Source of the DNA: an uncultured Ruminiclostridium sp.
GTDB taxonomy: Bacteria; Bacillota; Clostridia; Oscillospirales; Ruminococcaceae
Assembly: GCA_947623915.1 (NCBI GenBank)
Contig: CANQIB010000002.1
Coordinates: forward strand, 62,001 to 126,000
Reading direction: 5' to 3'
DNA length: 64,000 bases
How positions within the stretch are numbered: position 1 is the stretch's first letter; each line of letters begins with the position of its first letter. The translations under genes and the position numbers were made by a program. Below, one piece after another: positions 29,184-52,482 of this stretch. The notes beneath the pieces are model-generated. The model was not told the DNA's origin. It saw only the letters and a list, made by a program, of their open reading frames with translations, and ran no database searches.

Positions 29184-29212
29184 TTGACATCTCCGAACCC
29201 GCGTGATATACT
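29184..29212 (+). promoter_or_regulatory. Promoter for cysK
   Basis: TTGACA (29184-29189), 17-base spacer, TATACT (29207-29212), about 90 bases before the start. Confidence 0.7.
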
Positions 29213-30233: not shown

Positions 30234-30269
30234 TCGTTTTCAAATCAAAGATTTATGCGAGGAAGCATC

Positions 30270-30395
30270 ATGAACATTCAAATACGGATAAATTTGAATA
30301 CAGTAAACGGTGCAGCCGAAGAAACGTCCGATTTCTCCGGCTCCCTTGCCGTGTCCGTTTGTCGCTGCTGTGCGGTAAAGCATACAGGCGGCTGA
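30270..30395 (+). CDS. Cysteine-codon leader peptide
   Basis: 41 codons with GAGGAAG just upstream of ATG 30270. The C-terminal part reads SVCRCCAVKHTGG, giving three cysteine codons within four (TGT CGC TGC TGT, 30360-30371), followed closely by the stop at 30393-30395. The sequence covering the last codons (30384-30391) is one of three mutually pairing segments. It is not similar to any enzyme and is best explained as a regulatory leader peptide. Very small ORFs arise by chance; the pairing segments are what give it weight. Confidence 0.6.
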   Translation: MNIQIRINLNTVNGAAEETSDFSGSLAVSVCRCCAVKHTGG

Positions 30396-30487
30396 TTTTT
30401 CGGACAGTCTATCAAAACTCATAAACAAAACTCCGCCTGTTTTCAATATTTCGATTAGTTTTGGATCTTGAGAATACAGGCGGAGTT
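30384..30487 (+). promoter_or_regulatory. Cysteine attenuator (antiterminator/terminator pair)
   Basis: Segment 1 ACAGGCGG (30384-30391) lies at the end of the leader ORF. Segment 2 AACTCCGCCTGT (30429-30440) can pair either with segment 1 (8 bp) or with segment 3 ACAGGCGGAGTT (30476-30487, 12 bp perfect). Segment 3 is followed by CTTATGTTTTT. A ribosome finishing the leader would cover segment 1 and allow the 2:3 terminator; one stalled at the Cys codons would leave segment 1 free to pair with segment 2. The T-run is imperfect, so termination efficiency is uncertain. Confidence 0.6.
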
Positions 30488-30512
30488 CTTATGTTTTTAG
30501 AGAGGAAACCTT

Positions 30513-31236
30513 ATGATCGATACGCAGGAAAGTATGACGGCAAAATTGTGTTCCTTTGCCCGTGCATATCATTCAAATTACGAAAAAGAAAAAATATTTG
30601 ACGATTATCTGGCTTATGACCTTATGGGAAAAGAAGAATACGAGGAAATCGGGCAGCTTATCGAACACGGCTTTCAAAAAGAACGGTTCGACCCCGCGTA
30701 TTCTTTCAGCGGAAAAGATATAAGCGATGTTTTAAATACGTTTATTTCCCCTATTCCCTTATCGCGTGCGTCCTTTGCCGAACGCGAGCTATGGCGCTTT
30801 GCTTATGACAGAGGCGAATGTCAATATGTGATTTGCGGTGCCGGAATGGACACCTTTGCGTTTAGAAACGACGACCCTAAAATTAAAGTGTTTGAGATAG
30901 ACCACCCCGACACACAGCGTTATAAGCTGAAAAGGATCCGTGAGCTGGAGTGGAATATTCCTAAAAACGTAAAGTATGTTTCGGTAGATTTTACTTCCGA
31001 TCACATGGGAAATGAACTCAGAAAAGCCGGATTTGACCCGAAAATGCCTTCTTTCTTTGCGATACTTGGGGTGAGTTATTATCTGTCCCTTTCGGTCTTT
31101 GAGGAAACTATCCGAACGATAGGTCAAAACTCGTCCTTTGCAAGTAAACTTCTTTTTGATTTTCCCGACGATACGACATTCGGAGCCGAAGCCGCCGAGC
31201 GGGTCAAAATACTGACAGAAATTACGGCGGGACTGG
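30513..31236 (+). pseudogene. SAM-dependent methyltransferase (LCM/PPM family), 5' part, split by prophage
   Basis: The first 241 codons of a class I methyltransferase of the leucine-carboxyl-methyltransferase type: AKLCSFARAYHSN, SRASFAERELWRFAYD, the SAM site CQYVICGAGMDTFAFR, then VFEIDHPDTQRYKLKRI. The frame is cut after EITAGL by the prophage end and reads on for a few phage codons to a stop at 31268. The missing C-terminus lies at 60845-61056; joining them restores 311 codons. These enzymes often modify small molecules or peptides; the substrate is unknown. It sits behind the Cys attenuator. Confidence 0.9.
31232..31236. repeat. Target-site duplication ACTGG, left copy
   Basis: Five bases immediately before the left prophage end; the identical ACTGG follows the right end at 60840-60844. 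Five-base duplication is what Mu-type transposition makes. Confidence 0.92.
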
Positions 31237-31287
31237 TGTTGATTGACAAGCATAATCCGAAAAAATGACACGCGAAATACAAAAAGC
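31237..31287. other. Left prophage end with two transposase-binding-like sites
   Basis: After TGTTGAT come two 22-bp units, TGACAAGCATAATCCG (from 31244) and TGACACGCGAAATACA (from 31266), each ending in an A-rich tract. A matching unit starts seven bases inside the right end. They are likely MuA-type binding sites. Confidence 0.8.
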
Positions 31288-31308
31288 AAAGTCCGTAACA
31301 AACGCAAA

Positions 31309-31382
31309 AATCCGCACTGGCAAGCAAGTTTTCAACATTTTTAACGTAGAATGTTGAAAATCATGACGCTCATGTGCGGATT
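31309..31382 (-). terminator. Nested hairpin terminator near the left prophage end
   Basis: Outer stem AATCCGCAC (31309-31317) with GTGCGGATT (31374-31382) and inner 11-bp stem (31329-31339 with 31350-31360). On the minus strand the outer stem is followed by TTTGCG. It would stop leftward phage transcription leaving the element. Confidence 0.55.
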
Positions 31383-31392
31383 ATTTTTTTAG

Positions 31393-31593
31393 TTATGAAA
31401 CAATAGTAAAAAAATCACTTATTTTACAATTAAGCACCTCACATATACGCGAGAGGTGATCCAGTTTAATAAAGTCTATATTATTATGATAAATATCGCA
31501 GATTGTTGACGGTCTGATTCCTGTCAGACGAGCAAGATCCGCTTGAGACATTTTTAACTCTGTCAGAATCCGGTGAAGGTTTATTATTATCAT
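31393..31593 (-). CDS. Small Xre-type HTH regulator
   Basis: 66 residues; GGAGGG precedes the ATG. One Cro/C1-type helix-turn-helix (MSQADLARLTGIRPSTICDI) plus LDHLSRICEVLNCKISDFF, with no other domain. It is the last gene before the left prophage end, an accessory position, next to the Dam-like methylase. Its target is unknown. Confidence 0.85.
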   Translation of the reverse strand: MIIINLHRILTELKMSQADLARLTGIRPSTICDIYHNNIDFIKLDHLSRICEVLNCKISDFFTIVS

Positions 31594-31675
31594 ATTGCCC
31601 TCCGATCAGCACTATTTTGTTTGCGCAATCGTAACGAAATCCGTTATTGATATCGTAAAAAAAATACTGCTGCGG

Positions 31676-32422
31676 TTAGAAATTACGGATAATAAGCTCT
31701 CTATATAATCCCGCAGATAGATTATTGCTACGTGACACCGAAGTAATATTGTAATCTTTATACATCTCTCGCACAAGAGGAGTATCATTATAAGATAGTA
31801 TAAACATACCTTTAACGCTGTTCAAAGTGCGTTTTAAGCGGTTGTGATCATCGATTGTAAAACCTATTTCATAATATTTCTCCGAACCAAAATAAGGTGG
31901 ATCGCAATAAAACAACGCTGTAGGTCTGTCATATGTATTTATCAGATTTTCAATATCTTTGTGCTCGATTACAACGCTCTGTAAGCGCTCAGAAATGGTT
32001 TGCAAATACTCTCTTGATGAGTTTAGTGGCTTTTTTGAGCAACTGAATTCTCTGCCATTAGCGCCATAAGATAGTCGCATTTTGATATAATACCGAGCTG
32101 CCCGCTGAATATCCGTTAACCCGTGCATTTTAAGCTGTTCTAAGGCGTCAAAAAACATTTCACGGCTGTTATAATATCCGTTGATCTCTTTCTGAAGCTC
32201 TGAACAATGATATTTTATGCAGCGCAGCAGATTTACCAGTTCTCCATCAGCGTCATTGTAGACCTCAAGAGCGGCGTGCCTATCTTTTGTAAGCAGAACC
32301 CAGCCCCCACCGCCGAAAACCTCAATATAGCGATTATAGCGCGCCGGTTCAGGGAACAATTCACAAATTTTTTTGCGTAGTAGGCGTTTTCCGCCTATTC
32401 TTGGAATAGGGCTATTTGTCAT
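31676..32422 (-). CDS. D12-class (Dam-like) DNA adenine methyltransferase
   Basis: 248 residues; ATG follows TTTTGGAGG. N6-adenine methylase of the alpha (D12) class: IPRIGGKRLLRKKI near the start, SAM motif YIEVFGGGGWVLL, and catalytic FYCDPPYFG. There is no matching nuclease, so it is an orphan methylase that could protect phage DNA from host restriction or affect regulation. It lies beyond the late-operon terminator in the accessory left end, like a moron gene. Confidence 0.92.
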   Translation of the reverse strand: MTNSPIPRIGGKRLLRKKICELFPEPARYNRYIEVFGGGGWVLLTKDRHAALEVYNDADGELVNLLRCIKYHCSELQKEINGYYNSREMFFDALEQLKMHGLTDIQRAARYYIKMRLSYGANGREFSCSKKPLNSSREYLQTISERLQSVVIEHKDIENLINTYDRPTALFYCDPPYFGSEKYYEIGFTIDDHNRLKRTLNSVKGMFILSYNDTPLVREMYKDYNITSVSRSNNLSAGLYRELIIRNF

Positions 32423-32456
32423 GTGTTTACCTCCAAAAATCTCTTAAAACAACTTT

Positions 32457-32504
32457 AATAATCCTGTGCCTCCGACAAATGTTACATGAGGCACAGGGAT
32501 TATT
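32457..32504 (-). terminator. Terminator of the late operon
   Basis: Long inverted repeat, 32457-32472 with 32488-32504 (about 15 bp with one unpaired base), immediately downstream of the endolysin stop in leftward transcription. Confidence 0.7.
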
Positions 32505-32505
32505 A

Positions 32506-33414
32506 TTACATTTTTATTAGATCTTCTGCTCGCATTCCGGCGGTGATTTGACCGTCAAGACCTATCACGATATAATCTTTATTCGAGATCGTGCCGACCT
32601 GCTGAACGTCAAATACCGCATCGTATACCCAGCTTGCCAGGCGCGTGCCGGAATAGGTCAGCGCGCCGGTCTTTATTTTGACTTTGTCGCCGACTTTGAG
32701 TGCGACAGGCTGTGCGGGAGCAGGCGCGGGTTTTTCGGCGGGCTTGTCCGACTTGCAGTCGGCGGCATTTACCCAGCCAGTGCAGTCGGCGCAGCCTTTC
32801 GGCGTGGTTATCCTGATACGCCCGTTGATAATGCCATCGGCGTATATGTAGTATGTTCCGGTAATCGTGCCTGATTTCTTGCCAACCGTTGACGACACGT
32901 ATAACGGTGCAGTTTTAAGTTCAACTTTATCACCCTTTCGTAGATCAACAGGGTCGGAAGGCGACGGCTTGACGTTGCCAAATCCTTTTGTACCCATGAG
33001 ATACGGCAACGGATCGACATACACGCCATCGATGCAAACGTCAAAGTGCAAATGCTTGCCATAGCTGTCGCCAGTTTCACCCATTATACCCAGCTTGTCG
33101 CCCGCCTTTACGGTCTGTCCCGATTTGACGCAGACTGACCCAGTTTCGAGGTGCAGGTACCGCGTATATGTACCGTTCGGGTGGCGAATGCGGACATAGT
33201 TGCCCGCTGTATTGTATTTATGATCCACGCCGACGACATCATTACGGCAGCTCTCAACAACGCCGTCCGCCACAGCAACTATAACACATTTTCCCGCGTC
33301 ATCCACAAAATCCATACCTTTGTGCGTGGGGTAGGACGGGTTTCTGGTCTTATAATCAGCGGTAAGCTGCTCCGCCTCGGACGCCAAAACGTGGTGTTTG
33401 TAATTATTCAACAT
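32506..33414 (-). CDS. Phage endolysin: M23 endopeptidase with SH3-like domains
   Basis: 302 residues; GGAGG precedes ATG 33414. The M23 metallopeptidase domain spans about 10-140 (YPTHKGMDFVDD with the first zinc ligands, and GKHLHFDVC). Two SH3-like regions follow, one at about 155-225 (LRKGDKVELKTAPLYVSS), then a Pro/Ala linker (KPAPAPAQP) and a C-terminal module (KVGDKVKIKTGALTYSGTRL). The last module resembles the repeats of the host GH25 lysozyme at 2.7-3.1 kb. The start overlaps the holin gene by 11 bases, a normal lysis cassette. Confidence 0.92.
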   Translation of the reverse strand: MLNNYKHHVLASEAEQLTADYKTRNPSYPTHKGMDFVDDAGKCVIVAVADGVVESCRNDVVGVDHKYNTAGNYVRIRHPNGTYTRYLHLETGSVCVKSGQTVKAGDKLGIMGETGDSYGKHLHFDVCIDGVYVDPLPYLMGTKGFGNVKPSPSDPVDLRKGDKVELKTAPLYVSSTVGKKSGTITGTYYIYADGIINGRIRITTPKGCADCTGWVNAADCKSDKPAEKPAPAPAQPVALKVGDKVKIKTGALTYSGTRLASWVYDAVFDVQQVGTISNKDYIVIGLDGQITAGMRAEDLIKM

Positions 33415-33631
33415 CTTTCTTTTCCTCCTCTTGGTTGTTGATGTTTCCCGCGTCGGCGAACCCCTCCGCGAGAGTGTATGCTACCACCGACGCGGCGGTC
33501 ATTATGGCGCCGGATACGGTATTAGCTATGTTTTGGTTTCCGCTGATGATAACGATTATACCGCTTATCAGCCCCGCGACCGCCAGCCACCATTTGCGGC
33601 TGGTCAGTTTTCTTTTCCAATCAATTTTCAT
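33404..33631 (-). CDS. Phage holin (phi-LC3-type)
   Basis: 75 residues. It begins MKIDWKRKLTSRKWWLAVAG, like phi-LC3-family holins, with two hydrophobic helices (about 14-30 and 38-58) and a charged tail ending QEEEKKDVE. It should form membrane lesions that let the endolysin reach the wall. It sits directly before and overlaps the endolysin gene. Confidence 0.85.
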   Translation of the reverse strand: MKIDWKRKLTSRKWWLAVAGLISGIIVIISGNQNIANTVSGAIMTAASVVAYTLAEGFADAGNINNQEEEKKDVE

Positions 33632-33648
33632 GTTAGATTTCCTTTCTC

Positions 33649-34995
33649 TCAGCCGGTTGCGTGGCTGAGCTCGTATGTTATTTTCATAGTTTGCGACGCC
33701 GTTTTGGTTATAGGTTCGTCGAGATTGTTTATCGTGCCGAGATAATTAAACATGGCTGTTACGTATTTAGATTTATTATACGTACCATAGACATAACAGG
33801 GATTCTCTGTAGGAATAGACATATACCTTAAATCGCCAGAATCATAAAATAAATTTTGCTGTATTATGCCATGCGAATCAATAAGATATTTCCAAGAATT
33901 CTTCCTTTCATAAAATCTTCCGAAATACTGATTCAGTGAGGTCAAGTTATCCCAAAAAGGCATATCAGGCGTTAATAATGCTGTAACTGTCTGTCCATCT
34001 TCACTTAAGCGATATATTTGAGCTCTTTGGCTACGCTCATGCTGGGCAATTAAATAATAAAATCCGTCAAAAAAACCCGCTATACAAGCATAAATTCGAG
34101 AGTCATCCGGCAAAGCCGCGCATGTTACCTTTTTACTGTTCACCACTTTTTGTGAATATATGTCAACAACTATATGAGTAATGGTAGCTATATTTAATGA
34201 ACTAGAAGCATATATAAGATGCACCTGACCGTCTTTTAGGTAAATATCGGCATTATAACGGCTTATGCCACTCACCCCTATATCAATAGTATAAGATTCT
34301 GTATAGGAATAGTTAGTATTGCCTTTAGCTGCAATATCAAACATAGATATTTTTGCTAAATCCATATGGTGTACAATACTTAATTTAAGAGTAGAAGAGA
34401 GTGGTGAAATAGAAACAAAAACGTCCCTATCATCGCTTAACGCGCCTATAAAATCGCCATCAGGCGACATTATTACATTGCCGAGACAATAAAAACTAGT
34501 TAGATCGGCAGCGTTGTTATCGTATGATTGATATCCGGCATTACCGCATTTTACATGTGTAAGCGATAGACATTTAATTGTGCCATTTGCTTTGTCTGAC
34601 GCAAAATCCCAGACGTGCCGGTAACCTATATGTTTATTATCAGAATTATCAATGTATCCTGATTCGGAAGCGTTATATGTACCACGTTTAACTGCCGTTC
34701 CGGAGTAACTGCCCCCTGCATGCCCTACGCAATTAATGGTAGTAGGAGGGAATATAGTTTCCGAATTTGCGGCTATATTATCATCCCACAGCAATAATCC
34801 TCCTAGTCCTTTCGTACAGACCGGCATAAATTGATTATACAGATCGTTGTAGTTTATTCCCGCTTCAATCGTACATTTTGGCGGATTAAGAAGATACTCT
34901 ATCGCCTTTGTGACGATGTTCTTGTTCTCTATACACAGCTGTTCCTTGCCTGTTTTGGCATCAAACAGCTGTATTTTAGACTTACCAACTAGCAT
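33649..34995 (-). CDS. Putative receptor-binding or tail-fibre protein
   Basis: 448 residues, between the tail-hub gene and the holin, where host-recognition proteins usually lie. It starts MLVGKSKIQLFDAKTGKEQL, typical of phage distal tail proteins, and the rest is beta-rich without a recognised domain (repeated short hydrophobic strands, many Asn, Ser and Tyr). Its DNA looks more AT-rich than the neighbours, as expected for fast-evolving adsorption genes. The role is inferred from position. Confidence 0.55.
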   Translation of the reverse strand: MLVGKSKIQLFDAKTGKEQLCIENKNIVTKAIEYLLNPPKCTIEAGINYNDLYNQFMPVCTKGLGGLLLWDDNIAANSETIFPPTTINCVGHAGGSYSGTAVKRGTYNASESGYIDNSDNKHIGYRHVWDFASDKANGTIKCLSLTHVKCGNAGYQSYDNNAADLTSFYCLGNVIMSPDGDFIGALSDDRDVFVSISPLSSTLKLSIVHHMDLAKISMFDIAAKGNTNYSYTESYTIDIGVSGISRYNADIYLKDGQVHLIYASSSLNIATITHIVVDIYSQKVVNSKKVTCAALPDDSRIYACIAGFFDGFYYLIAQHERSQRAQIYRLSEDGQTVTALLTPDMPFWDNLTSLNQYFGRFYERKNSWKYLIDSHGIIQQNLFYDSGDLRYMSIPTENPCYVYGTYNKSKYVTAMFNYLGTINNLDEPITKTASQTMKITYELSHATG

Positions 34996-35009
34996 AATTA
35001 TTACCTCCG

Positions 35010-36998
35010 TTAGCTTTTTGAGGTAACCTCAAATGATAGGATAAATGACTCTACAAAAAGCTCATTATGATCTTTGAGGTTGCCATTTGATTGTTCATAC
35101 GATACGCTTATCACATTGCCGATTTTTGATATTTCCGCAAAAACAAGCGATATGGTATGCTGGTTTGACTGGGTTATCTCTGCCGGATTGAGGTATATCA
35201 CCTCATTTCCGACAGTAGAATTGACAACGAAAGCATTTAGATTATAAGTCATATCATCAGAGCAGACAGGATTAGAAAATGTGATCGTTATCTCGTTGTC
35301 ACTCATCTGAGCGTACACAGCTCTTATCGGCAGCAATTCCGATATATCGGTATGCCTAGCCTGTATATCTATGCCTTGCCACATAGGCAACTGCTCCCGT
35401 ATTGTTTGAGCGATTGGGTATTGTAGTTTATAGATGCCGCTGTCCGATATGTCCGTCATAACGGCCGCGAAAGCAGCAGACCAGTACGGCATCAGTTCCC
35501 GCACGGATATAGTGCCATCCCAAGCTACATTACCGGCAAGTCCGTTGCCTGTCACAACGGCATAACCCTGATTGGCAGGGACTGTACCTTCTGCCGTGTC
35601 AGAAGTGCTGATATATATAGATACATTATGCTGCCCGTTAGTGGTACCGGCTATTGGCATTGTTATTGACTTGAAGTTATCCCCAACAGCACATATCTGT
35701 GGGAAAGACGCTATTGCTGTACCGTTAAAAATTACGGTAAATACAACAGTACCCGCAGTAGTCAGCTTAAAAGGAATAGTGGCTATCAGTATAGGAACAC
35801 AAACCATATCAGCGGCAAAATTAACGCGCAGGACGTTCGCCCTTGTGCCTACTGCCGGGATAGTCGCCGCCGATGAGACGGAATAATACACCGCCATAGC
35901 GTTTTTGGATTGGCTGACGGGAGACTCACCGCCTATCCTGTTACCAGATTCGGCAGCTGACTCAGCATTGGAGATAATCGTTTCATTAAATCCGTTATCT
36001 ACTCCTATACTGTAGGTCAGCTCATGTATTATTGCTCGGCATTTTCTGCCACGATAGGTTACATTTATCGTATCTCCGGGAAAAAGCCACCCCGTACCTC
36101 TGCGTGTGAGATTAGCCGAGTAATATCTAAATCCGCCCAGCTTGTGCCATAAATACTCAAGGATCTCAACAGTGCAGAACGGGTTATTTACCTCTACAAT
36201 ACCCTCCATATCTTCTTCGTAAGTGTCGCCTGTATCGTTAATAAAAAATGTATCAGCCCCGCATATTACCCGCACGCCTTTTATTTCAAAGCCGTCGTCT
36301 GCGTCGCCGATAGAACAATCGCTGCATTGGGTATAATCTATTTCGGCAGCGGTAACGCCGGAAATTGAGGTAAAAATAAGCACACCCATATTGTCAAAAT
36401 GCACATTACATCCGTGAGAAGCGGCAATAAAACTTAATATCTCTCGGTATGTGTAATATTTGCTGCTGTCATCGACCGCCTCGGAATTATACACAGGACG
36501 CTTATCGACGGAAAAATCCTCACATAAAATATTGTGAGAAAATCCGTTTATTTTGGCTATATAATCAATCATCTGCTGATGAGTGGCGGGAAAGGATAAT
36601 GCAGGTACGGTACCTGATTTGTTGCCGGTGAACTTACACGGCTTGTCAAGGTAGTACATCTTATCTTGTGCCTCGATGGTCACTATACCGTTATCCTGTG
36701 TGAGGTCGATAATGAAAAAATGTCCGAGCTGCTGAAAGTCTGAGCCGCCTATTTTGATATAACTATCAACCGCATAATTAGACAGCGACGGCGGAGTATT
36801 GCCGCGAAAACTGGCGGTCATTCGGTCGGACACAGCCGCTCCGATCGAAAATCCGCTGCCGTTGGAATCCTCTCTGCTGATCTCAACACTCAGTATATCC
36901 TCGTTAATATATTCAACGCTGCCTATCTTGATTTTTGCGGCAATATCTCGGATGTTCTTTTCGGCAGCGATTTTGAAATCTGACGGTACCGATATCAT
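35010..36998 (-). CDS. Phage tail hub / minor tail protein
   Basis: 662 residues. The N-terminal half (FKIAAEKNIRDIAAKIKIGS, then DSYIKIGGSDFQQLGHFFI) resembles the tail-hub proteins of Firmicutes siphophages that cap the tail tube; GWLFPGDTINVTYRGRKCRA marks the end of this unit. The C-terminal about 300 residues look like beta-sandwich modules (VVFTVIFNGTAIAS; EITITFSNPVCSDDM), possibly carbohydrate-binding or peptidase-associated. Its start overlaps the end of the 113-residue gene upstream. Confidence 0.7.
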   Translation of the reverse strand: MISVPSDFKIAAEKNIRDIAAKIKIGSVEYINEDILSVEISREDSNGSGFSIGAAVSDRMTASFRGNTPPSLSNYAVDSYIKIGGSDFQQLGHFFIIDLTQDNGIVTIEAQDKMYYLDKPCKFTGNKSGTVPALSFPATHQQMIDYIAKINGFSHNILCEDFSVDKRPVYNSEAVDDSSKYYTYREILSFIAASHGCNVHFDNMGVLIFTSISGVTAAEIDYTQCSDCSIGDADDGFEIKGVRVICGADTFFINDTGDTYEEDMEGIVEVNNPFCTVEILEYLWHKLGGFRYYSANLTRRGTGWLFPGDTINVTYRGRKCRAIIHELTYSIGVDNGFNETIISNAESAAESGNRIGGESPVSQSKNAMAVYYSVSSAATIPAVGTRANVLRVNFAADMVCVPILIATIPFKLTTAGTVVFTVIFNGTAIASFPQICAVGDNFKSITMPIAGTTNGQHNVSIYISTSDTAEGTVPANQGYAVVTGNGLAGNVAWDGTISVRELMPYWSAAFAAVMTDISDSGIYKLQYPIAQTIREQLPMWQGIDIQARHTDISELLPIRAVYAQMSDNEITITFSNPVCSDDMTYNLNAFVVNSTVGNEVIYLNPAEITQSNQHTISLVFAEISKIGNVISVSYEQSNGNLKDHNELFVESFILSFEVTSKS

Positions 36999-37336
36999 AC
37001 TTCCTCCAAATCGATCGTGATGTTCGAAACATAACGGCCGGTATTATCCTCATAGACGGTCGCCGCCGACGGATTATTTATCAAATGTACATTATATTCC
37101 GCACCATCCTCTGACAGAGTTATCCCAGTCTTTTGGATCTCGACTGATATCTTTTCCCATTGAGATACACTAATCAAACCAAAAGTAAGGTGGAAAGTGT
37201 TTTTGAAATCTCCGATACGGTCTACTTTGGCAGTACCATCTAATGTATATAATACCGACTTGCCTCGGCAGCCCTTATCAACGGTATAACCGGTAATGAG
37301 CTTTGATACATCATATCCGTTTATCGTGATACGCAT
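36995..37336 (-). CDS. Phage tail protein of unknown role
   Basis: 113 residues (MRITINGYDVSKLITGYTVD), beta-rich, between the tape measure and tail hub, where a distal tail (Dit)-like component is expected. It is shorter than typical Dit proteins, so this is only a positional guess. It overlaps the next gene by four bases (ATGA). Confidence 0.6.
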   Translation of the reverse strand: MRITINGYDVSKLITGYTVDKGCRGKSVLYTLDGTAKVDRIGDFKNTFHLTFGLISVSQWEKISVEIQKTGITLSEDGAEYNVHLINNPSAATVYEDNTGRYVSNITIDLEEV

Positions 37337-37347
37337 ACACTATCCTC

Positions 37348-40300
37348 CTACAGCGGCGATTTGCCTGTTTGCTTAGTTATCTTTTTGATGCCTTTAACGG
37401 TTGCTTTTGCGAGTGTGTAATCGTTAGTCTTGAGCGTTACATCAAGCGTATATTGCATTTTTTCCTGTGCCGTTTTAAGGCTCTTTAACTCTGCGACAAC
37501 GTCATTAAGAGTAGCATCAGCTTTCTCAGTTGTGCCGGCTGACATGGCTTTGGTGGATAAGCCTGATATAATCTTAGCTGATGAGCTGTTCCCGACCTTT
37601 GATTTACCTATTGCAGCGGCTAGTTTGTTATTAGTCTCTTTAGCGTTGTCCCACATTGTCGGAATATATGAGGTTATGTTTATGGTGTTTCCTTCGGTAT
37701 TTCTGGAATTGGCATTTGCCGTTGCCGAACCGACGGTAGGAACAGTATTGCTATAAGTCGGCTTAACAACTGAGGCAATCTTAGATTTTTGAGTGTTACC
37801 GACCGATATGTTTGATGTACCTAACAAGGACTGTGTTGGCGTGTATGTAGGTATATCGATATTTGACGGAGTGTAGGCAAATTTTTCAAAGCCTAAATCG
37901 TCGACACTAAACTCAGGGGCTGTATAGGTATATCCTGAGCTTATATTAGCGGATTTTTTTTGGATATCATTTTTCGACTGCTCCTCTGCCTTTGCAGACA
38001 GATTGTCAGTAGAACTATAAGGCTTATATCCTTGCGAATACAATCCATTTGATTCTCTGATATTGTTATACCATTCATCGACATTATCCTGATCGAGGTA
38101 ATCGCTGAGCCACACGTCATAGGCACGCTTCTTCTCATCTGTGTCAAGGTACTTATTCTTGGCAGAGTTAAGTGCATCTTCAGCCGACATACCTTTTCGC
38201 AGCTCGTCTATAATATAAGCGTTCATGTCCGTTTGCAGACTGCTGTACTTAGATGATAGATTTACTGTTTCTATATCGTCTTGGTGAGTAGCCTCGTACA
38301 TTGCTCGGCCTATGTTCTCACAGGCTTTGACTGTATCATCGTACCATTTTTGCAAAGACGTTCCAAACATACTGTCTATTGCACCAAGAACATTAGAGAA
38401 AAGGTCAACAAATCCTTGTCCAAACTGTACAAGACCGCCCATGATATCGCCGGAAAGAAAATTTGCTACACCGCTGAAAACATCGGCGAGAGCGGCTATA
38501 TTCTGTGCAACAAATTCTATTGCAGGCGCCAAAAATGATATAAGGATATTTATTATGGCCTCGAATATAGGCATGATTGGCTCTAGTGCTCCGGTTATTA
38601 GGCTGACAAAAGCACCAAGCAACTGTCCTACAGCGTCTATTATTGTTCCGAGCGGATCTGCCAAAGCGACTATAAGGTCAAGGATAGGTTCTAATAGTGC
38701 AATCGCTATATCAAGGATCGGCATTAGAGCGTCGATGACCTCAAGCAGCGGGGGCAACAGCTTTTCAACCACTTCTATTAACGGTGGCAGGAGCTCATTA
38801 AGCAGCTCAATAAGAGTAGGCGCTATACGCTGAATCGCATCGCCCAGAAATGACATCAGCGGTTTAAGCAGTTCTACAAACTGAGGCAACACATTTTTAA
38901 TAATATCGATGAGCGGTTCTATAAGCTCCGACAAATCGGATATTATAGGTGTGATTAGCTCTGATATTTCAGGCAACAGCTCCTCGATAATCGGGGTTAT
39001 CGAGGCGATGACCTCTTTAAGCACGGGGATAAGAGTTTCGCCCAGCGGGATAAGCAGTAGCTCCATTGTGCGGGTAAGCCCCTCAAACATATCTGAAAGG
39101 CTGCTATATTTAACATCGTTCATCTCGGCGAGTTTATCTCGCTGGGTATCTATCGCACCGTCCATCTGTGACATAGCAAGCACGGCGTCGCGTCCGAGAT
39201 CCTCCCACTTAGTACCATAGAGGGCTACACCTGCAGCGTTTTGGACTACGTCATCATCGCAAGCTGCAAGCTGAGCATTAACAAGCTGATAAGCTTTATA
39301 TGCCCGGTCGCCGCCTGCCGCAAATTCCGCTGTCAGTTTTTCGGCATCAAGCCCAAGAGCATTTAAGCCCTCTGCTGTGGTAGTAGAGCCGTCCTTTGCA
39401 CGGATAGAAAATTCTTTGAAAGCGTCGTTTAAGAAATCTATCTGATAGGCACCGCTTTTCGCACCGGATATCATCATTGAGAGAGCTTGTTCGGCGGAAA
39501 AGCCCATATCAGCATAAAATGTGCTGTACTCAGATAGCTGATCCGCAAGGTCGCCGTTTTGGTTAAGGCCGTTTTCGGCACCTTGAGCCATGAGGTTATA
39601 CGCCTCTTTGGCAGAGATCCCAAACTGATTTACAAGGGCGTTTGCGCCTCGTATACCCTCGGCAATATCCATATCATAGACATCGGACATCATATAAGCA
39701 GCTTCTATCACAGGCTGTATATCTGCGTCTGACAGCCCGCGCATTTGCTGTTTGATAAGTGATATATTATTAGCTATGTCCTCAAACGACTCGCCAAAAT
39801 TATTGCCGTAAATCGCGGTTATCGTATCCTTATACTTTTCGGCATCAGCCTTTGACAGACCGAGCGATGCAGACAGCTGATTAGTAGCTTTGTCCAGATC
39901 GTTAGCTGCATTCACAGCTGCAGTACCTACAACGGCAACTCCTCCTGCCGCAGCGGCAACGCCTGCACCTATACCTGCAGCGGCTTTTTTACCGACAGCA
40001 GCCATCGAGGAGGACACCTTAGAGCCTAAGCCTTGAGCCTTTTCCTCGATGTTTTTTGCTGCTCCGTCCGCCGCTTTAACAATCTCATCAGCAGCTTGCT
40101 TGTTCGCGTCAACCACCTTTTGAGCCTCAGTCTTAGCAACCTTTGTCATCGACTGTTTATTAGCTTTATCGTTTTCCGCTATTCTGTCGGATTGGTCTTC
40201 CGCGTGATCGGCTATTTTTTTCTGAGTGCTGCTGCTGTCCTTTTGGATATCTGCGTTCGCTTTTTCGAAGGACTTACGCATTTTTTCTTCAGCTTTATCC

Positions 40301-40362
40301 AGATCCTTATCAAGGTTAGAATAATCAGCTCGCAGCTCATATTCTACATTTCCGTCTGCTAT
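37348..40362 (-). CDS. Tail tape-measure protein with apparent ATA start
   Basis: 1004 residues if begun at ATA 40362. A perfect anti-Shine-Dalgarno complement (AGGAGGTGAT) lies upstream and the frame from there reads ADGNVEYELRADYSNLDKDL, the usual start of tape-measure proteins. The first ATG is 27 codons further in (40281) and has no ribosome site. An in-frame ATT lies one codon earlier. The protein has a coiled-coil N-terminus, a Gly/Ala-rich hydrophobic stretch (about 110-155), an Ile/Leu/Pro helical repeat region (about 430-650) and a low-complexity C-terminus. It sets tail length. Confidence 0.9.
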   Translation of the reverse strand: MADGNVEYELRADYSNLDKDLDKAEEKMRKSFEKANADIQKDSSSTQKKIADHAEDQSDRIAENDKANKQSMTKVAKTEAQKVVDANKQAADEIVKAADGAAKNIEEKAQGLGSKVSSSMAAVGKKAAAGIGAGVAAAAGGVAVVGTAAVNAANDLDKATNQLSASLGLSKADAEKYKDTITAIYGNNFGESFEDIANNISLIKQQMRGLSDADIQPVIEAAYMMSDVYDMDIAEGIRGANALVNQFGISAKEAYNLMAQGAENGLNQNGDLADQLSEYSTFYADMGFSAEQALSMMISGAKSGAYQIDFLNDAFKEFSIRAKDGSTTTAEGLNALGLDAEKLTAEFAAGGDRAYKAYQLVNAQLAACDDDVVQNAAGVALYGTKWEDLGRDAVLAMSQMDGAIDTQRDKLAEMNDVKYSSLSDMFEGLTRTMELLLIPLGETLIPVLKEVIASITPIIEELLPEISELITPIISDLSELIEPLIDIIKNVLPQFVELLKPLMSFLGDAIQRIAPTLIELLNELLPPLIEVVEKLLPPLLEVIDALMPILDIAIALLEPILDLIVALADPLGTIIDAVGQLLGAFVSLITGALEPIMPIFEAIINILISFLAPAIEFVAQNIAALADVFSGVANFLSGDIMGGLVQFGQGFVDLFSNVLGAIDSMFGTSLQKWYDDTVKACENIGRAMYEATHQDDIETVNLSSKYSSLQTDMNAYIIDELRKGMSAEDALNSAKNKYLDTDEKKRAYDVWLSDYLDQDNVDEWYNNIRESNGLYSQGYKPYSSTDNLSAKAEEQSKNDIQKKSANISSGYTYTAPEFSVDDLGFEKFAYTPSNIDIPTYTPTQSLLGTSNISVGNTQKSKIASVVKPTYSNTVPTVGSATANANSRNTEGNTINITSYIPTMWDNAKETNNKLAAAIGKSKVGNSSSAKIISGLSTKAMSAGTTEKADATLNDVVAELKSLKTAQEKMQYTLDVTLKTNDYTLAKATVKGIKKITKQTGKSPL

Positions 40363-40382
40363 AATATATCACCTCCTCACGC

Positions 40383-40988
40383 CTACTCGTTTGCTTTTTG
40401 CTCCAAAATCGCAAACAGCTTGTTCCAGCCCTCCTCTGCCTTTTGAGGATTAACATGATCGCGTATTGCATAAATCGCCTTGAGATTGGTCAATTTCTCG
40501 ATATACTTGCCGTTATGCTTGTTAGGCGGTGGAACGGGAGTAGAGCGTATTTCTACTATCTGCATAAGCCGAGTATCCTCCGGCAAAGCTTTAAGCAACG
40601 ACAAAAAGCACCACCATTGCATATAGCCCTGTTCCTTGAAAAGGTCTATCCCGTATGCCTGTAAAAACGCCGCGTATATATAAGGCGCGTCCTGTGAGTA
40701 ACTGATAGTATCAGGTTCGTCGTCACTTTCTGCGGACTTATCAAAATTAATAAGTTTGCTGATTATTTCATTGACTACGGATATACGTTCTGCCATAGAT
40801 GCTTTTCGATTATCCATAACAAACCAGTCATACAGTATATCCAGTGCGCTCTCTTGGTCAAACTCCTCGCCCGATAACAGCTTGACAGCCTCCAAAACTC
40901 GGTCAAAGGACAAATTTATCGCATAATTTTTGCCCCCGACATTGATACTGCGGGGGCAGGGACGGCTAATGCTGTAGCTGCTGTCCAT
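40383..40988 (-). CDS. Gp15-family phage tail assembly protein
   Basis: 201 residues matching the bacteriophage Gp15 family: AINLSFDRVLEAVKLL, EFDQESALDILYDWFV, and QWWCFLSLLKALPEDTRLMQI. In siphophages of Firmicutes this gene lies between the tail chaperone and the tape measure, as here, and likely acts with the upstream gene as assembly chaperone. It overlaps that gene at TAATG. Confidence 0.8.
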   Translation of the reverse strand: MDSSYSISRPCPRSINVGGKNYAINLSFDRVLEAVKLLSGEEFDQESALDILYDWFVMDNRKASMAERISVVNEIISKLINFDKSAESDDEPDTISYSQDAPYIYAAFLQAYGIDLFKEQGYMQWWCFLSLLKALPEDTRLMQIVEIRSTPVPPPNKHNGKYIEKLTNLKAIYAIRDHVNPQKAEEGWNKLFAILEQKANE

Positions 40989-41410
40989 TAAAATTTGCGC
41001 TTGTATGCGCTTTTGACCTGTGCTTTGCGCCTTTTGAGCGCGTCTTCTAATGCCGGAGCTATCACATTATAGATATAAGGCACAAGCTGCACCGACATTT
41101 CTATATATTGCCCGTTGTAAAAATCAATTATGATTTTAGTGTTTTCTTCGCCGAAAACGAGCAGGAATATTTCTTTCACCGCGTTGCCGTAAGCAAAAAA
41201 CGCCGCGTCTATATCCGACTGTAGGCCGTTGCGCTGTACTTCCTTGAGCTGCCGCTCGGCGTTGATAATCTCGATCTGACGTTTGCGGTATTGAGTGCAT
41301 ATTACGTCTGCGTCGATGTCTATATCAAGAGTCTGTACTACATTGCCGTCCTCATCGCACAGCTCCAACACATCCTTTATATGTTTGCTCCGTGATACCT
41401 GATATGCCAT
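40988..41410 (-). CDS. Putative tail assembly chaperone
   Basis: 140 residues (MAYQVSRSKHIKDVLELCDE), helical with a basic tail (RKAQVKSAYKRKF). It lies after the tail tube gene and overlaps the Gp15-like gene, the slot of gpG-type chaperones. No slippery heptamer was clearly seen at the junction; overlap replaces frameshift. Confidence 0.65.
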   Translation of the reverse strand: MAYQVSRSKHIKDVLELCDEDGNVVQTLDIDIDADVICTQYRKRQIEIINAERQLKEVQRNGLQSDIDAAFFAYGNAVKEIFLLVFGEENTKIIIDFYNGQYIEMSVQLVPYIYNVIAPALEDALKRRKAQVKSAYKRKF

Positions 41411-41435
41411 TCCTATATTTTCCTTTCAATTATTA

Positions 41436-41462
41436 TAAGGGGCTGCTATTAACAGCCCCTTA
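41436..41462 (-). terminator. Intercistronic hairpin after the tail tube gene
   Basis: Perfect 10-bp stem TAAGGGGCTG / CAGCCCCTTA, loop of seven. On the minus strand it follows the tail tube stop and is followed by TAATAATTG rather than a pure T-run. Likely a partial attenuator or mRNA stabiliser giving excess tail tube protein. Confidence 0.6.
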
Positions 41463-41465
41463 TTC

Positions 41466-41993
41466 TTACTTTTTTGTCGTTGCTTTTTCGCTTTCGACTG
41501 TTGATATCATCGGCTGTGATGCTTTTAACGCTACAGCCTCAGACGCTTTGCTTACCGCCGGCTTGCCGTTAAACGCTATTGTAAGCGTGACAGCGTTCGG
41601 CGCGGTACTTTCACCGCCACTGATGGCTATGCCGGTCAGAGTGACAGGACAGGTAACAACGTTACCATTGCGGGTGAGTTTGATGTCGGTGACACGTTTT
41701 GCACCTATCTCATACTGGATAGAATCCAGATACTCGCATACAGTGTCGCCCTTGATAAAATCGCCCGTTACCGTAACGGTAGGGGCAGCACCGACCACCG
41801 TAGAGCTGCCAAATCCGCCGTCGGATAAGTAGGTGGCGTTATATATAACCTCGTTCATCGCCATTGCGATAGACTTAAACGCCTGCCTAAGATCGGCATA
41901 TTCGCCTTCTTCTGCATCAGGCTTAACGTTAAGCTCTGCGAGTATCTCGCTGTTAAGCTCAGCACTTGCTACTTTAGGCATTGTTTTTGCCAT
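41466..41993 (-). CDS. Major tail tube protein
   Basis: 175 residues beginning MAKTMPKVASAELNSEILAE, with a beta-rich core (TVTVTGDFIKGDTVCEYLDS, RVTDIKLTRNGNVVTCPV) as in tail tube proteins of siphophages. Located between head-completion genes and the chaperone/tape-measure block, and followed by a strong hairpin. Confidence 0.78.
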   Translation of the reverse strand: MAKTMPKVASAELNSEILAELNVKPDAEEGEYADLRQAFKSIAMAMNEVIYNATYLSDGGFGSSTVVGAAPTVTVTGDFIKGDTVCEYLDSIQYEIGAKRVTDIKLTRNGNVVTCPVTLTGIAISGGESTAPNAVTLTIAFNGKPAVSKASEAVALKASQPMISTVESEKATTKK

Positions 41994-42016
41994 ATTTTAA
42001 CCTCCTTAATTGGCTC

Positions 42017-42397
42017 TTAAAACGCTATTTTTACATCGATAACCATGGAATAGATCCATTGGTCGCCGACCTTATCTATCAGACCCGTTTCCGTTGACAC
42101 TGCCGCTGATAATATTTGTACATCATCGCTCGTAGGAAAATCTGCGGTCTTTGACAGTAGATTGCCTATGCTGCAAAGCCGCGTATATGCGGATTGCTGG
42201 TCGCGGTTTTTCGCCAGGAAAAGCATTGTCAGCGTTCTGTTTTGACGCTGTTTGTCAAGGGTAGATCCGTCATTTCTGCCGGACTGGATCTGTATAGATA
42301 TTCCGCCGCCCGGAGGCAGCGGAGCTATTTTGACCTCATAGCCTAAGTTATCGGCTATCAGCTTTAAGATAATGTCTAATGCTGCCTCCTGCGGCAT
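42017..42397 (-). CDS. Minor capsid protein 3-like / tail terminator
   Basis: 126 residues (LPPGGGISIQIQSG; RQNRTLTMLFLAKNRDQQSA; DKVGDQWIYSMVIDVKIAF), resembling the Minor_capsid_3 family of Firmicutes phages, which in siphophages corresponds to the tail-completion protein. Its start abuts the previous gene stop. Confidence 0.72.
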   Translation of the reverse strand: MPQEAALDIILKLIADNLGYEVKIAPLPPGGGISIQIQSGRNDGSTLDKQRQNRTLTMLFLAKNRDQQSAYTRLCSIGNLLSKTADFPTSDDVQILSAAVSTETGLIDKVGDQWIYSMVIDVKIAF

Positions 42398-42765
42398 TAT
42401 TTACCTCCTTTCAGCAAAGCTTGAAATTGCCTGCGCCACTGCTCGCCTTTTTGTTTTGAGGCTTTATGTGCCCACATTTTGGTGGCGTTGGGGTTATGGT
42501 CATGAGAAAACTTATACGGCTTACCGGACGGAGATATACCATAATAGAGCTGCCGAGCATAAGGCGTGCTCCAGCGCATTACCATCCTACTGTCTGCCAC
42601 CTCCGAAAAGTTGTAACTACTCTGTATCAAAGTACCTTCATCTTGGGGTGCATAATTATTACAGTCATCAAGAACTATGCCCATCATTGCATTTAATGAG
42701 TTCTCAGCCTTTTCCTGTAATTTTTTCTTCACCGCGCTGCGGTTACAAGTGATTTTTATATTCAC
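42397..42765 (-). CDS. Minor capsid protein 2-like (HK97 gp10-type) protein
   Basis: 122 residues with the family pattern: NAMMGIVLDDCNNYAPQDEG, MVMRWSTPYARQLYYG and a C-terminal NATKMWAHKASKQKGEQWRR. It completes the head-tail joint. It overlaps the upstream gene by four bases. Confidence 0.8.
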   Translation of the reverse strand: MNIKITCNRSAVKKKLQEKAENSLNAMMGIVLDDCNNYAPQDEGTLIQSSYNFSEVADSRMVMRWSTPYARQLYYGISPSGKPYKFSHDHNPNATKMWAHKASKQKGEQWRRQFQALLKGGK

Positions 42766-43094
42766 GTCAGCTCCACCTCGTAATGGTGCGGCTTGTTGGT
42801 ATCAAACCGTCGTATTTTCTGTATGTTGTAATCCTTACCCTCAAATGTAACCCTGTCGCCGAGCCGAAACGTATACCCCGCAGGCTTGGATAACACACAG
42901 TCATAATATAACACCGCGCTTTTTGCTTTTGAGGTGTTTTGCTTATCCTGTGTTCTCTCATCGGTAGTCTCTATACGGATAACACTTAAATCGGTGCTTC
43001 TTTTTTCCGTACGATTGCCCCATTTGTCGGGTTTACCTAATCGGATTATAGTACAGCTATGGATAAGCAACCTGCGCGGCAGCGGCTTAATCAT
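42762..43094 (-). CDS. Minor capsid protein 1-like head closure protein
   Basis: 110 residues from ATG 43094, which overlaps the stop of the head-tail connector (ATGA); a TTG further upstream would lie within that gene. LLIHSCTIIRLGKPDKWGNR and YTFRLGDRVTFEGKDYNIQK match the Minor_capsid_1/stopper type of head-closure protein. Confidence 0.75.
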   Translation of the reverse strand: MIKPLPRRLLIHSCTIIRLGKPDKWGNRTEKRSTDLSVIRIETTDERTQDKQNTSKAKSAVLYYDCVLSKPAGYTFRLGDRVTFEGKDYNIQKIRRFDTNKPHHYEVELT

Positions 43095-43483
43095 ACGACC
43101 ACCGTCCCTCGGTATATCATTCCGGCATTTAGCAGCAGCGTATATGCCGTTTGGCATAGCTTTATCGTGTTGCTTGCGCTTCCGGATGAGGAATTTGCGG
43201 CAGCAGAATAGCTGAAGCCGCCGAGCGCAGCACTCGCAATACCGCTGTCATCAAGGCAATCAATGCCGCCGTTTGATATGATCCACTCGGTCTGATAGCA
43301 TACAGCTTTTTTAATTAGCTCCTGCTGCCTTGCACTACACCGGTCAAAATTACGGGTTATATTACCCGCGCAGTAATTATCCGCAGATATAACCGATAAT
43401 TCTAACAGCTTTGACAGCTCATCATCTGAGCCGTCGAAGCTGCCGCCAAAAATATTGCGGAAATATTCGGGTGTAACCGTCAT
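43091..43483 (-). CDS. Head-tail connector (gp6-like)
   Basis: 130 residues: TPEYFRNIFGGSFDGSDDEL, then helices (ELIKKAVCYQTEWIISNGGI) typical of adaptor proteins that bind the portal. Located just downstream of the major capsid gene. Confidence 0.7.
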   Translation of the reverse strand: MTVTPEYFRNIFGGSFDGSDDELSKLLELSVISADNYCAGNITRNFDRCSARQQELIKKAVCYQTEWIISNGGIDCLDDSGIASAALGGFSYSAAANSSSGSASNTIKLCQTAYTLLLNAGMIYRGTVVV

Positions 43484-43497
43484 TTTGCTCTTCCTTA

Positions 43498-44721
43498 TTA
43501 TTCGAGAGTTGCACGTTCAAAATTAAGCGTCATGATGATATCATCATCTGCTTTGAATGTGAACTTAGTGCTTGACGACGGAATACGCAATACCCATTCC
43601 AGATCGGTAGATGTTTTAGGATCGTCGCTGTCGCGCTGACAAGAGATCGTCTTACCGCTGTATCTGCTATCAAGGACTACGGGAAGATAATGACCGCTCT
43701 GCTCCGCTTTAACGCCGGAGAACCCGGTATAATCCGTCACTTTCTTGATATTGCCGGTTACGCTGCCGTCTGCGCTGATTTTAACGTTATCGGCGATAAG
43801 ATCGCTTACTGATTTTCCGTATCCGTTTTTAAGCTCAGTAGGCACTTGAGCCGACGGCGATATGTGGCAGTACAGACCTTTACGCTTGTTGTCGTAGATC
43901 TCCGCTATGCTGTAAGCACGATAGAAGAACATATACCCGTCCGATGTCTGGTTTGCGTCGGGAGAGATGATCTTGTTGACCGTGTGTTTGCCGAACTGGA
44001 TAACAGCGTCCTTATTGATGATAAAGAAGTTAATGGGGTTAGCTCCATCTGCGGGTTTATAGCCGCCCGCCAACTCGTCACCGCTCTTACCGTCGAGCAG
44101 CTCGATAGCGGTGTAAAATCTCGGCTGAGGTACTTCCTTTATTTCGGAGAACCTTTCCAGTATCGCTTTTGATACGGTGGTTTTCACGTTTTTGGCCAAC
44201 GTGAGCAGGGTAGGCGTGATAAACAGCACCTTGCCCTCGTGATTCACCTCTGCCTCGTCCTGTACGTTGACAGCGGCGATAAGTGCCGCCAGCACCTCTT
44301 CACCGGTGGTGAGTTTTGCTTGTTCGGTGAGTATTCCGTCCATACCCGCATAAGTCGCAAGGCGGTATGCGTCCATTTCTGGGGTAGCTCTGGTGCGGAC
44401 AAATTCGCCTGCTAGCTTTCCGAACGCTATACCGGCAGTTTCCTCATCATCCATAGCGTCAACGTCAAATTTTCTGCCGCGATCATAGCCGCACTTCTTG
44501 GTCTGATAGGTGATAGACACATTGCCGCTTGCATATCCCGTGCCGCGATCATAATCGGCAAGCCCGTCCATGGTCATCATAGGGATAAGAAATTCTCCCG
44601 CGTTCTGACCCATGCGGACGGTTTCGGGATCCGCGTCCAGCACCGACGTCGCTGCCGCCTGTGCATAGACGGTATCCAGCTTGTTGATGTACTTCTTAAA
44701 AGGGGTAATTGTATTTGGCAT
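43498..44721 (-). CDS. Major capsid protein
   Basis: 407 residues (MPNTITPFKKYINKLDTVYA; GYDRGRKFDVDAMDDEETAG; EFVRTRATPEMDAYRLATYA). This is the pattern of HK97-fold capsid proteins of Clostridial phages, placed after the scaffold gene. The C-terminal 70 residues (NIKKVTDYTGFSGVKAEQSG) resemble an added Ig-like surface domain. Confidence 0.88.
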   Translation of the reverse strand: MPNTITPFKKYINKLDTVYAQAAATSVLDADPETVRMGQNAGEFLIPMMTMDGLADYDRGTGYASGNVSITYQTKKCGYDRGRKFDVDAMDDEETAGIAFGKLAGEFVRTRATPEMDAYRLATYAGMDGILTEQAKLTTGEEVLAALIAAVNVQDEAEVNHEGKVLFITPTLLTLAKNVKTTVSKAILERFSEIKEVPQPRFYTAIELLDGKSGDELAGGYKPADGANPINFFIINKDAVIQFGKHTVNKIISPDANQTSDGYMFFYRAYSIAEIYDNKRKGLYCHISPSAQVPTELKNGYGKSVSDLIADNVKISADGSVTGNIKKVTDYTGFSGVKAEQSGHYLPVVLDSRYSGKTISCQRDSDDPKTSTDLEWVLRIPSSSTKFTFKADDDIIMTLNFERATLE

Positions 44722-44740
44722 ATTTTGTTCCTTTCCGGGC

Positions 44741-45250
44741 TTACTTAATGCCCATTATCCTGTTGACCTTAGCCTCGTCGAGCGCGTCAGCGACGACATT
44801 AGAGGTGTGAGCCGCCGTCGTTAACGCGATCTCAACAGCACTGTCCTTAAACTGCGGATACTTTTCGACGATTGCGTCTATTGCTGATTCGATAGTCGTT
44901 TCGGCGTTTACCTTTGTTTTTGCCAGCGCGATAACGTCATCAAGGCAGTCTGACTTGATACCCGCCGCCAGCGCGTGTACCTTGCCCTCAAGCTCGGTGA
45001 GCTTTTCGGCATTTTCGGTCTTATCGGATTGCTCCGTCTGCTTTTCCTCAGCAGCTGCCTGTGGCTTTTCGGGGTCGGACGCAGCCGTTTTATCCTCAGT
45101 CTCCGATTTACTTTCTGCCGAAGGCTCTGACTTAGTGCTTTCTGCGGGCTTGGTTTCGCCGGCTTTTTCCGGCTGCTTTTCTTCAGTCGGTGTTTCTGCG
45201 GTTGCCGCTGCCGTTTCATCGGCGGCAATGGATACATTTTCGTTTTCCAT
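44741..45250 (-). CDS. Phage scaffolding protein
   Basis: 169 residues from ATG 45250, which has AAGGAAGG upstream. The first about 85 residues are a disordered Glu/Lys/Ala/Ser/Pro-rich stretch and the rest is helical (KLTELEGKVHALAAGIKSDC), ending DEALDEAK-like helices before NRIMGIK. Acidic, helical proteins directly before the capsid gene are capsid scaffolds. Confidence 0.75.
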   Translation of the reverse strand: MENENVSIAADETAAATAETPTEEKQPEKAGETKPAESTKSEPSAESKSETEDKTAASDPEKPQAAAEEKQTEQSDKTENAEKLTELEGKVHALAAGIKSDCLDDVIALAKTKVNAETTIESAIDAIVEKYPQFKDSAVEIALTTAAHTSNVVADALDEAKVNRIMGIK

Positions 45251-45283
45251 AGGTTTGACCTTCCTTTCAATTTTTTGCATATA

Positions 45284-45310
45284 AAAAACGCCCTCAAGGA
45301 GGACGTTTTT
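45284..45310 (-). terminator. Intercistronic terminator before scaffold/capsid genes
   Basis: Stem of about 11 bp with one mismatch (45284-45295 with 45299-45310, AAAAACG..CCTC / GAGG..CGTTTTT), with T-runs on both strands. It lies inside the late operon between the 78-residue gene and scaffold, so it must be read through. Confidence 0.7.
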
Positions 45311-45370
45311 AAACTTGTTATTAGGTGCAATAAAAGCATCCTGTTTATGGGGCGCTTAATTGTTTAATGC

Positions 45371-45607: not shown

Positions 45608-45608
45608 A

Positions 45609-50361: not shown

Positions 50362-50436
50362 ATTATGATCTCCTCCATCAAAAAAAGAGCCCGAAAACAG
50401 CCCTTTTTACGCCTTTGTTTATTTGATTGAAAATTT

Positions 50437-50493: not shown

Positions 50494-50614
50494 ATATCCC
50501 CGCACTTTGAGCGCGAGGGTATGCTTCGCCATTCCGATTTAGCTTAAATCAGATGATTTTTCCTATTTACATAATCGTTCCGGCGGGGGAGCGGATCAAC
50601 CAACGCCATAGTTA

Positions 50615-51645: not shown

Positions 51646-51659
51646 TGCTCCTCCTATCT

Positions 51660-52464: not shown

Positions 52465-52482
52465 TGATATTGTAGAATTTGA

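Follow-up and report, generated by a model that had tools for sequence, protein, structure and literature searches.

Between the cysteine synthase gene cysK and a methyltransferase gene, the window (the whole 64,000-nucleotide stretch of DNA analysed here) carries a short reading frame with clustered cysteine codons followed by a hairpin, and the question raised by this locus is whether the two together form a switch that responds to cysteine. We conclude, with a probability of roughly 0.88, that the element is a cysteine-specific transcription attenuator of the classical, ribosome-mediated kind. Features of the window are presented in Table 1.

Table 1. Features of the cysK-attenuator-methyltransferase region and of the downstream part of the window
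Feature	Position	Strand	Basis and remarks
Promoter-like TTGACA-17-TATACT upstream of cysK	29184..29212	+	Consensus match only; 6 in the region versus 4.2 expected in shuffles
cysK, cysteine synthase A, 309 aa	29304..30233	+	TIGR01139 E 1.2e-140; Pfam PALP
Shine-Dalgarno-like GAGGAA of the leader	30259..30264	+	Sequence; identical in L191, GAGGGA in L174
Leader peptide ORF	30270..30395	+	41 codons; ATG 30270, TGA 30393-30395; MNIQIRINLNTVNGAAEETSDFSGSLAVSVCRCCAVKHTGG; end ..SVCRCCAVKHTGG
Regulatory codons TGT CGC TGC TGT (Cys Arg Cys Cys)	30360..30371	+	Sequence
Segment A, overlapping the Cys codons and able to pair with 30380-30392	30361..30373	+	Fold prediction
Segment B, antiterminator 5' strand ACAGGCGGC, encodes the leader's TGG end	30384..30392	+	Alignment
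Segment C AACTCCGCCTGT, partner common to B and D	30429..30440	+	Alignment
Segment D ACAGGCGGAGTT, terminator 3' strand	30476..30487	+	Alignment; hairpin -27.0 kcal/mol
T-rich tract CTTATGTTTTT, imperfect, 3' of the terminator stem	30488..30498	+	Sequence
LCM/TIGR00027 SAM-dependent methyltransferase, 5' part only	30513..31265	+	Aligns to relatives to about 31226, then the frame enters the prophage
Mu-like transposable prophage splitting the methyltransferase gene	31266..60832	.	Terminal inverted repeats TGACACGC.., 19/24 bases matching
AAA ATPase, neighbour of the transposase, MuB-like by position	55233-56180	-	
MuA-like transposase with Mu-transpos_C, in the prophage	56185-58266	-	
Methyltransferase C-terminal part ..QQLGEPMRHGYTVEEIS..	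60833..61056	+	By eye against C-termini of relatives
Apparent mccB 3'-end remnant ..DRYVDDLLADLEQAIKESEE*	61080..61161	+	By eye against mccB of L103
mccA-like PLP enzyme, CysK family, second copy	61164..62075	+	Name mccA from operon position

The initial annotation had placed a leader, its Cys codons and two mutually exclusive pairings here, and the window sequence bears out all of its coordinates. Cys codons lie at 30360-30362, 30366-30368 and 30369-30371 with the Arg codon CGC in between; ACAGGCGG at 30384-30391 is complementary to CCGCCTGT at 30433-30440, and 30429-30440 forms a perfect 12-bp stem with 30476-30487. The device had been described as having three segments, which is not so: a fourth segment (30361-30373) can pair with the antiterminator segment, making four in the manner of the trp type. 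We agree that the T run is imperfect in the window, and longer tracts are frequent in relatives. The leader ATG follows the cysK stop codon by 36 nt and the LCM ATG follows the terminator stem by 25 nt. Folding of this stretch gives a z-score of -5.4, none of 200 shuffles being equally stable; a Cys-cluster ORF with a Shine-Dalgarno-like site arose in 7 of 500 dinucleotide shuffles, and B:C complementarity of equal strength in 2 of 300. The hairpin is absent from the output of a plain terminator scan, probably because the loops allowed in the scan were limited to 3-8.

Several searches at the nucleotide level yielded little. BLAST of the intergenic DNA against 60 relatives gave matches in 22 genomes at E<=0.1, the best of them outside the own genome having an E value of 1.6e-4 over 43 bases, and none was taken as real. 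The pattern TGYCGNTGYTGY was rejected as noise in the own genome (48 matches versus 54 for a reversed control); inspection by eye of 30 of its loci (17 on the plus and 13 on the minus strand) found a leader-like arrangement only at the window site, and a match 300 nt behind a cysK paralogue on contig C3 proved to be another frame of a longer ORF. The pattern TGYTGYNTGTGYTGY had matches in 206 of 394 genomes and a covariance model, R1, in 150 of 394 at E<=0.01. Only three R1 matches exceeded 60 bits, all of them at cysK-mcc loci (G325, G380, G000), the next being at about 40 bits or less; among 18 R1 loci inspected, the leader was present in these three only, L203 and L216 for instance being without one.

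Conservation was followed through the methyltransferase. The loci of 80 of the 188 LCM relatives in an alignment scan of named genomes were examined, some of them from one genome; three (L169, L173, L185) with less than 400 nt upstream were left out, giving 77. A Cys-cluster ORF preceded by a Shine-Dalgarno site is present upstream of LCM in 72 of these 77 loci, as compared to none of 77 on the reverse strand and a mean of 3.3% in shuffles. The finder gave no such ORF in the remaining five (L146, L177, L179, L180, L183), in the first of which a Cys ORF continues towards the gene. The usual pattern of the leader is ..CCCMCC.DTGG... The 7-residue stretch richest in Cys holds 3 to 6 of them, and the median length is 45 aa (range 25-57), over the 65 leaders counted, 8 of 73 being left aside. 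A terminator is present in 72 of the 76 leader records, and the four without one are Selenomonas loci having a short Cys ORF. In these (L184, L186, L188, L189) an ORF of 20 residues, MKC(D/I)CCNI.., starts about 78 nt before LCM, and such a terminator-less Cys ORF might act on translation.

Judged by the titles of their records, carriers of the element are found, among others, in Ruminococcus and other Ruminococcaceae, Lachnospiraceae, Eubacterium oxidoreducens, Ruminiclostridium sufflavum, Ruminococcus bromii and Anaerotignum. Of three rumen Treponema loci two have it as well, and Selenomonas has it in the reduced form. Strain-named records are those of Eubacterium oxidoreducens DSM 3217, Ruminococcus bromii YE282 and Ruminiclostridium sufflavum DSM 19573; Anaerotignum sp. 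MB30-C6 is also a carrier, with a weak B:C pairing. In the own genus, LCM orthologues are present in 3 of 60 genomes; G030 has one behind a Cys leader of different sequence, MKNTVFAKCCCCIKNEYCCNDGT, and G025 by eye shows neither a leader nor such an operon. They occur in 5 of 295 genomes of the order at E<=1e-40: in other families G325 and G036 have the orthologue behind a Cys leader, and no leader was seen by eye in G086 and G217, whose LCM proteins are 37% and 33% identical. The initial annotation had staked its reading on conservation of the Cys codons and pairing segments in relatives; both are present, and the reading survived. It had also called a cysteine attenuator unusual for a Clostridium-like host. 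The interpretation is supported, and what it took for an oddity is a family, as relatives carry the same anatomy.

These counts bear on one alternative, namely that the hairpin is an ordinary cysK terminator and the Cys-containing ORF is there by chance. In its favour, the hairpin comes after cysK, the interval from cysK to LCM showed no further terminator, and the cysK paralogue of the own genome (contig C3, 85% identical) has by eye a short plain terminator right behind it. However, leader ORF and B segment are conserved far beyond chance, a co-oriented operon lies beyond the hairpin, and a Cys leader with terminator precedes LCM even where cysK is not upstream (L154, L165, L166, G030). As a general account this explanation fails on the leaders found on the coding strand and lacking on the reverse strand, and we regard it as highly improbable.

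The pairings themselves were assessed in an alignment (A2) of 45 diverse sequences out of 76, leaving out 19 near-duplicates and 12 outliers (L146, L160, L170, L181, L182, L184, L186, L187, L188, L189, G030, G036), so that the covariation result applies to all but the most divergent leaders; in one row, L165, segment C is misaligned. For B:C, 91.6% of the cells are paired and 6 of 9 pairs have changed on both sides, neither pairing nor double changes being as high in any of 500 shuffles, and slid controls are 29-51% paired. For C:D, 92.6% of the cells are paired (none of 500 shuffles as high), 5 of 9 pairs show a double change (14 of 500), and covariation is 0.344 versus 0.182 (none of 500), in a shuffle control that leaves shared ancestry in. 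Segment B is mostly ACAGGCGGC or ACAGACGGC and C mostly GCCGTCTGT or TCCGCCTGT, while D repeats B. In 7 of 45 rows the fifth base of B is A instead of G, and C then has T; opposite a G at this position, C has a C in 22 rows and the other 16 are G-U. All three strands have changed together in L153 (CAGGTGG / CCACCTG / CAGGTGG) and in L162 (TCAGG / CCTGA / TCAGG).

Locus by locus, B:C complementarity is reached by 5% or fewer of shuffles in 61 of 72 loci and by 1% or fewer in 44. Among the 11 that are not better than 5% of shuffles, the finder had picked a hairpin other than the aligned one in L112, L129, L135, L160 and L187, and the pairing is truly weak in L170, L178, L182, G030, G036 and L146; L143 and L155 passed despite misassigned hairpins. 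Apart from the weakness in these 11, antiterminator and terminator exclude each other through one common strand, as in attenuators of the trp/his type. Further marks of that type are found in relatives, namely the Cys-cluster leader ORF, a terminator with T tract before the first gene, and cysteine-making genes downstream. The ORF with its Cys cluster, both pairings with their double changes, the terminator and the gene context are conserved; leader translation, stalling, termination and induction by cysteine starvation are what we infer.

An equilibrium model was used to fold the transcript as far as the end of C in three states, namely ribosome at the first Cys codon, ribosome at the stop codon and no ribosome; it covers 65 loci, 7 of 72 having been left out for misassigned hairpins (L112, L129, L135, L143, L155, L160, L187). 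The initial annotation had predicted antitermination on stalling and termination on completion, which holds in silico for the window: the B:C antiterminator has a probability of 0.79 under stalling, and of 0.00 both when the ribosome has reached the stop codon and when there is no ribosome. Means over the 65 loci are 0.74, 0.30 and 0.40, respectively. Simulated stalling brings B:C above 0.5 in 60 of 65 loci. Relative to stalling, it falls by more than 0.3 with no ribosome in 33 of 65, and by as much at the stop codon in only 37 of 65. In the other 28 loci the fall at the stop codon is at most 0.3, many of these having the stop 12-23 nt beyond B. For the window, and for most loci with the stop close behind B, the folding model gives a clean off state; where the stop lies further on, a moving ribosome, outside the equilibrium model, would have to do the work. 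Pairing of A with B in the absence of a ribosome has a predicted probability of 0.72 in the window and a mean of 0.42 over the 65 loci, and is near 0 in some. Off-state folding is the weakest part of the argument for an attenuator.

In the proposed mechanism, RNA polymerase arriving from cysK would transcribe the leader with a ribosome trailing it. When charged Cys-tRNA is scarce, the ribosome would stall on the Cys cluster and leave B open, and B would pair with C once C emerges, blocking the terminator C:D. Transcription would then continue into the genes for the methyltransferase, (metK), (luxS), mccB and mccA. With plentiful cysteine, the ribosome would reach the stop codon, which in the window lies directly behind B, and mask B, so that C:D would form and transcription end. 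Without translation, A:B pairing is predicted to give termination in the window too. Transcription into the attenuator may start at the promoter-like site upstream of cysK.

A different view of the same ORF is that it encodes a functional small protein, for example a metal- or thiol-binding one, the hairpin merely lowering downstream expression constitutively. The leaders are fairly long, as their median length indicates, and the N-terminus is partly conserved among near relatives. Between lineages, however, the N-terminus varies while Cys cluster and RNA pairing persist. The window leader has no match in Pfam or NCBIfam, and among five further leaders there was a single chance match (E 0.096). 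Non-synonymous codon differences exceed synonymous ones among the three nearest leaders (8 to 5, 12 to 7, 10 to 6), which suggests no strong selection on the peptide, so few codons deciding little. We consider a small protein very unlikely.

In most relatives the operon reads cysK - leader - LCM - (metK) - (luxS) - mccB - mccA. Downstream genes were found by tblastn in the 80 loci as mccB in 65, mccA in 63 and luxS in 51, some contigs ending early; an intact metK lies in the gap between LCM and luxS in L174, and L117 and L163 have similar reading frames there. Similarity and position are the basis of the names mccA and mccB, since the best NCBIfam models score below their cut-offs. Directly upstream stands cysK in 56 of 77 loci, and the leader starts 3-38 nt after its stop codon (53 loci measured, 3 of 56 left aside). 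By the established pathway, enzymes of these kinds turn methionine via SAM, SAH and homocysteine into cysteine. By its position between cysK and LCM the attenuator therefore separates sulfide assimilation from methionine conversion, and most likely it switches on the genes for methionine-to-cysteine conversion only under cysteine shortage.

The short distance behind cysK also bears on whether a metabolite riboswitch or a Cys T-box, and not translation of a leader, senses the signal. An operon of the same type, ubiG-mccBA, is described as being under a Cys T-box in Clostridium (PMC2940859). Against this, no T-box, S-box or other Rfam family was matched at gathering score near the window site or in the 16 of 80 loci scanned, the ORF with its Shine-Dalgarno site is conserved, and a T-box has no room in the few nucleotides between the cysK stop and the leader start of the window and of the 53 loci measured. 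The chance of such a sensor appears to us close to nil.

The copy in the window itself is damaged. The gene behind the attenuator had been annotated as a methyltransferase; it is indeed an LCM gene, of which only the 5' part stands there, the rest being split off by a Mu-like prophage, whose inverted-repeat ends show no clear-cut target duplication. Inside this prophage, just upstream of the transposase gene, a Type II hammerhead ribozyme is found at 58409-58481 on the minus strand (Rfam RF02276, 47.3 bits). Beyond the prophage, the methyltransferase C-terminal part has no Pfam match on its own and the mccB remnant no tblastn match at E<=1e-10. What looks like a stub of mccB separates the methyltransferase C-terminus from mccA, so that the operon is not only split but seems to have lost mccB as well. 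Arg stands in place of one of the four Cys codons of relatives, the T tract is broken, and so are the target genes. Since its target operon is broken, the switch in the window is probably a relic or nearly so, and we give useful regulation in this genome even odds or less.

The nearest relatives of the window leader are L174 and L191, with the homologues MNIQMKIYLNTVNKAAKETSGFSGFLAMSGCCCCMVKYTGGCLKSFG and MNIQIRINLNTVNDAAEEASGFSGFLAVSDCCCCMIKHTGG, respectively; both retain segments B, C and D and have four Cys in place of the Cys-Arg-Cys-Cys of the window. L191 belongs to G380, from another family of the order. Its cysK piece is 94% identical to that of the window and its leader near-identical, and, with no LCM, the leader stands directly before mccB; this likeness suggests horizontal transfer of a cysK-leader unit. 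In L174 (6581-7216), where LCM is full-length, tblastn shows an mccB piece of 300 nt followed at once by an mccA piece of 336 nt, either a deletion or an assembly fault.

Control of cysteine genes in Firmicutes is described as resting on T-boxes, S-boxes and CymR/CysR-type regulators, and the Cys T-box as controlling the ubiG-mccB-mccA(-luxS) operon in Clostridium perfringens, C. acetobutylicum and C. botulinum (PMC2940859). The element reported here shares with that T-box the metabolic node (methyltransferase, LuxS, MccB, MccA), the input of tRNA-Cys charging and the output of premature termination. In contrast, the T-box binds tRNA whereas the sensor here would be a ribosome translating a leader peptide; the methyltransferase belongs to the LCM type, and the element often stands within an operon, 3' of cysK. 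Ribosome-mediated attenuation is likewise predicted for the uORFC-8-2 motif, found before cysS in Rhodobacterales, which also combines Cys codons with an intrinsic terminator (PMC8632094). By its description it differs in gene (LCM or mccB follows here), in phylum and in having two tandem Cys codons. Cys leader peptides before cys/cbs operons of Mycobacterium, Propionibacterium and Bifidobacterium similarly have runs of Cys codons near the leader stop, before cysteine genes; no conserved terminator hairpin is reported there (PMC1262725), whereas here terminator and antiterminator are both conserved.

Classical ribosome-mediated attenuation in Gram-positives is known from the histidine leader before hisZ/hisS* in bacilli (PMC2965389) and from Rli60 of the Listeria ilv-leu genes, demonstrated by experiment (PMC5864092). 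These serve other amino acids and operons, and unlike Rli60 the Cys attenuator is predicted from sequence. Full-text searches of open-access literature turned up no report of a cysteine attenuator in Clostridia. The element is a newly recognised Cys-specific family whose mechanism is classical.

A broader reading, to which we give somewhat less than an even chance, is that leader-peptide attenuators take the place of the Cys T-box at the methionine-to-cysteine node in many gut and rumen Clostridia and in some Treponema and Selenomonas. These would have arisen more than once, the separate origins being those of the CCCMCC..DTGG type, of the dissimilar leaders in G030 and G036 and of the terminator-less Selenomonas form, and would have spread horizontally with the operon. 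Behind cysK the attenuator would then be a branch switch, cysK staying on and costly methionine conversion being added only in cysteine starvation. Since strain-named records carry the attenuator, it is open to experiment. Conserved in about 70 of the loci examined, it would add a ribosome-based sensor at the methionine-to-cysteine node of Clostridia and would be a case in which tRNA sensing is exchanged for ribosome sensing within one type of operon. It would also supply a simple cysteine reporter for anaerobes and let small leader ORFs be annotated.
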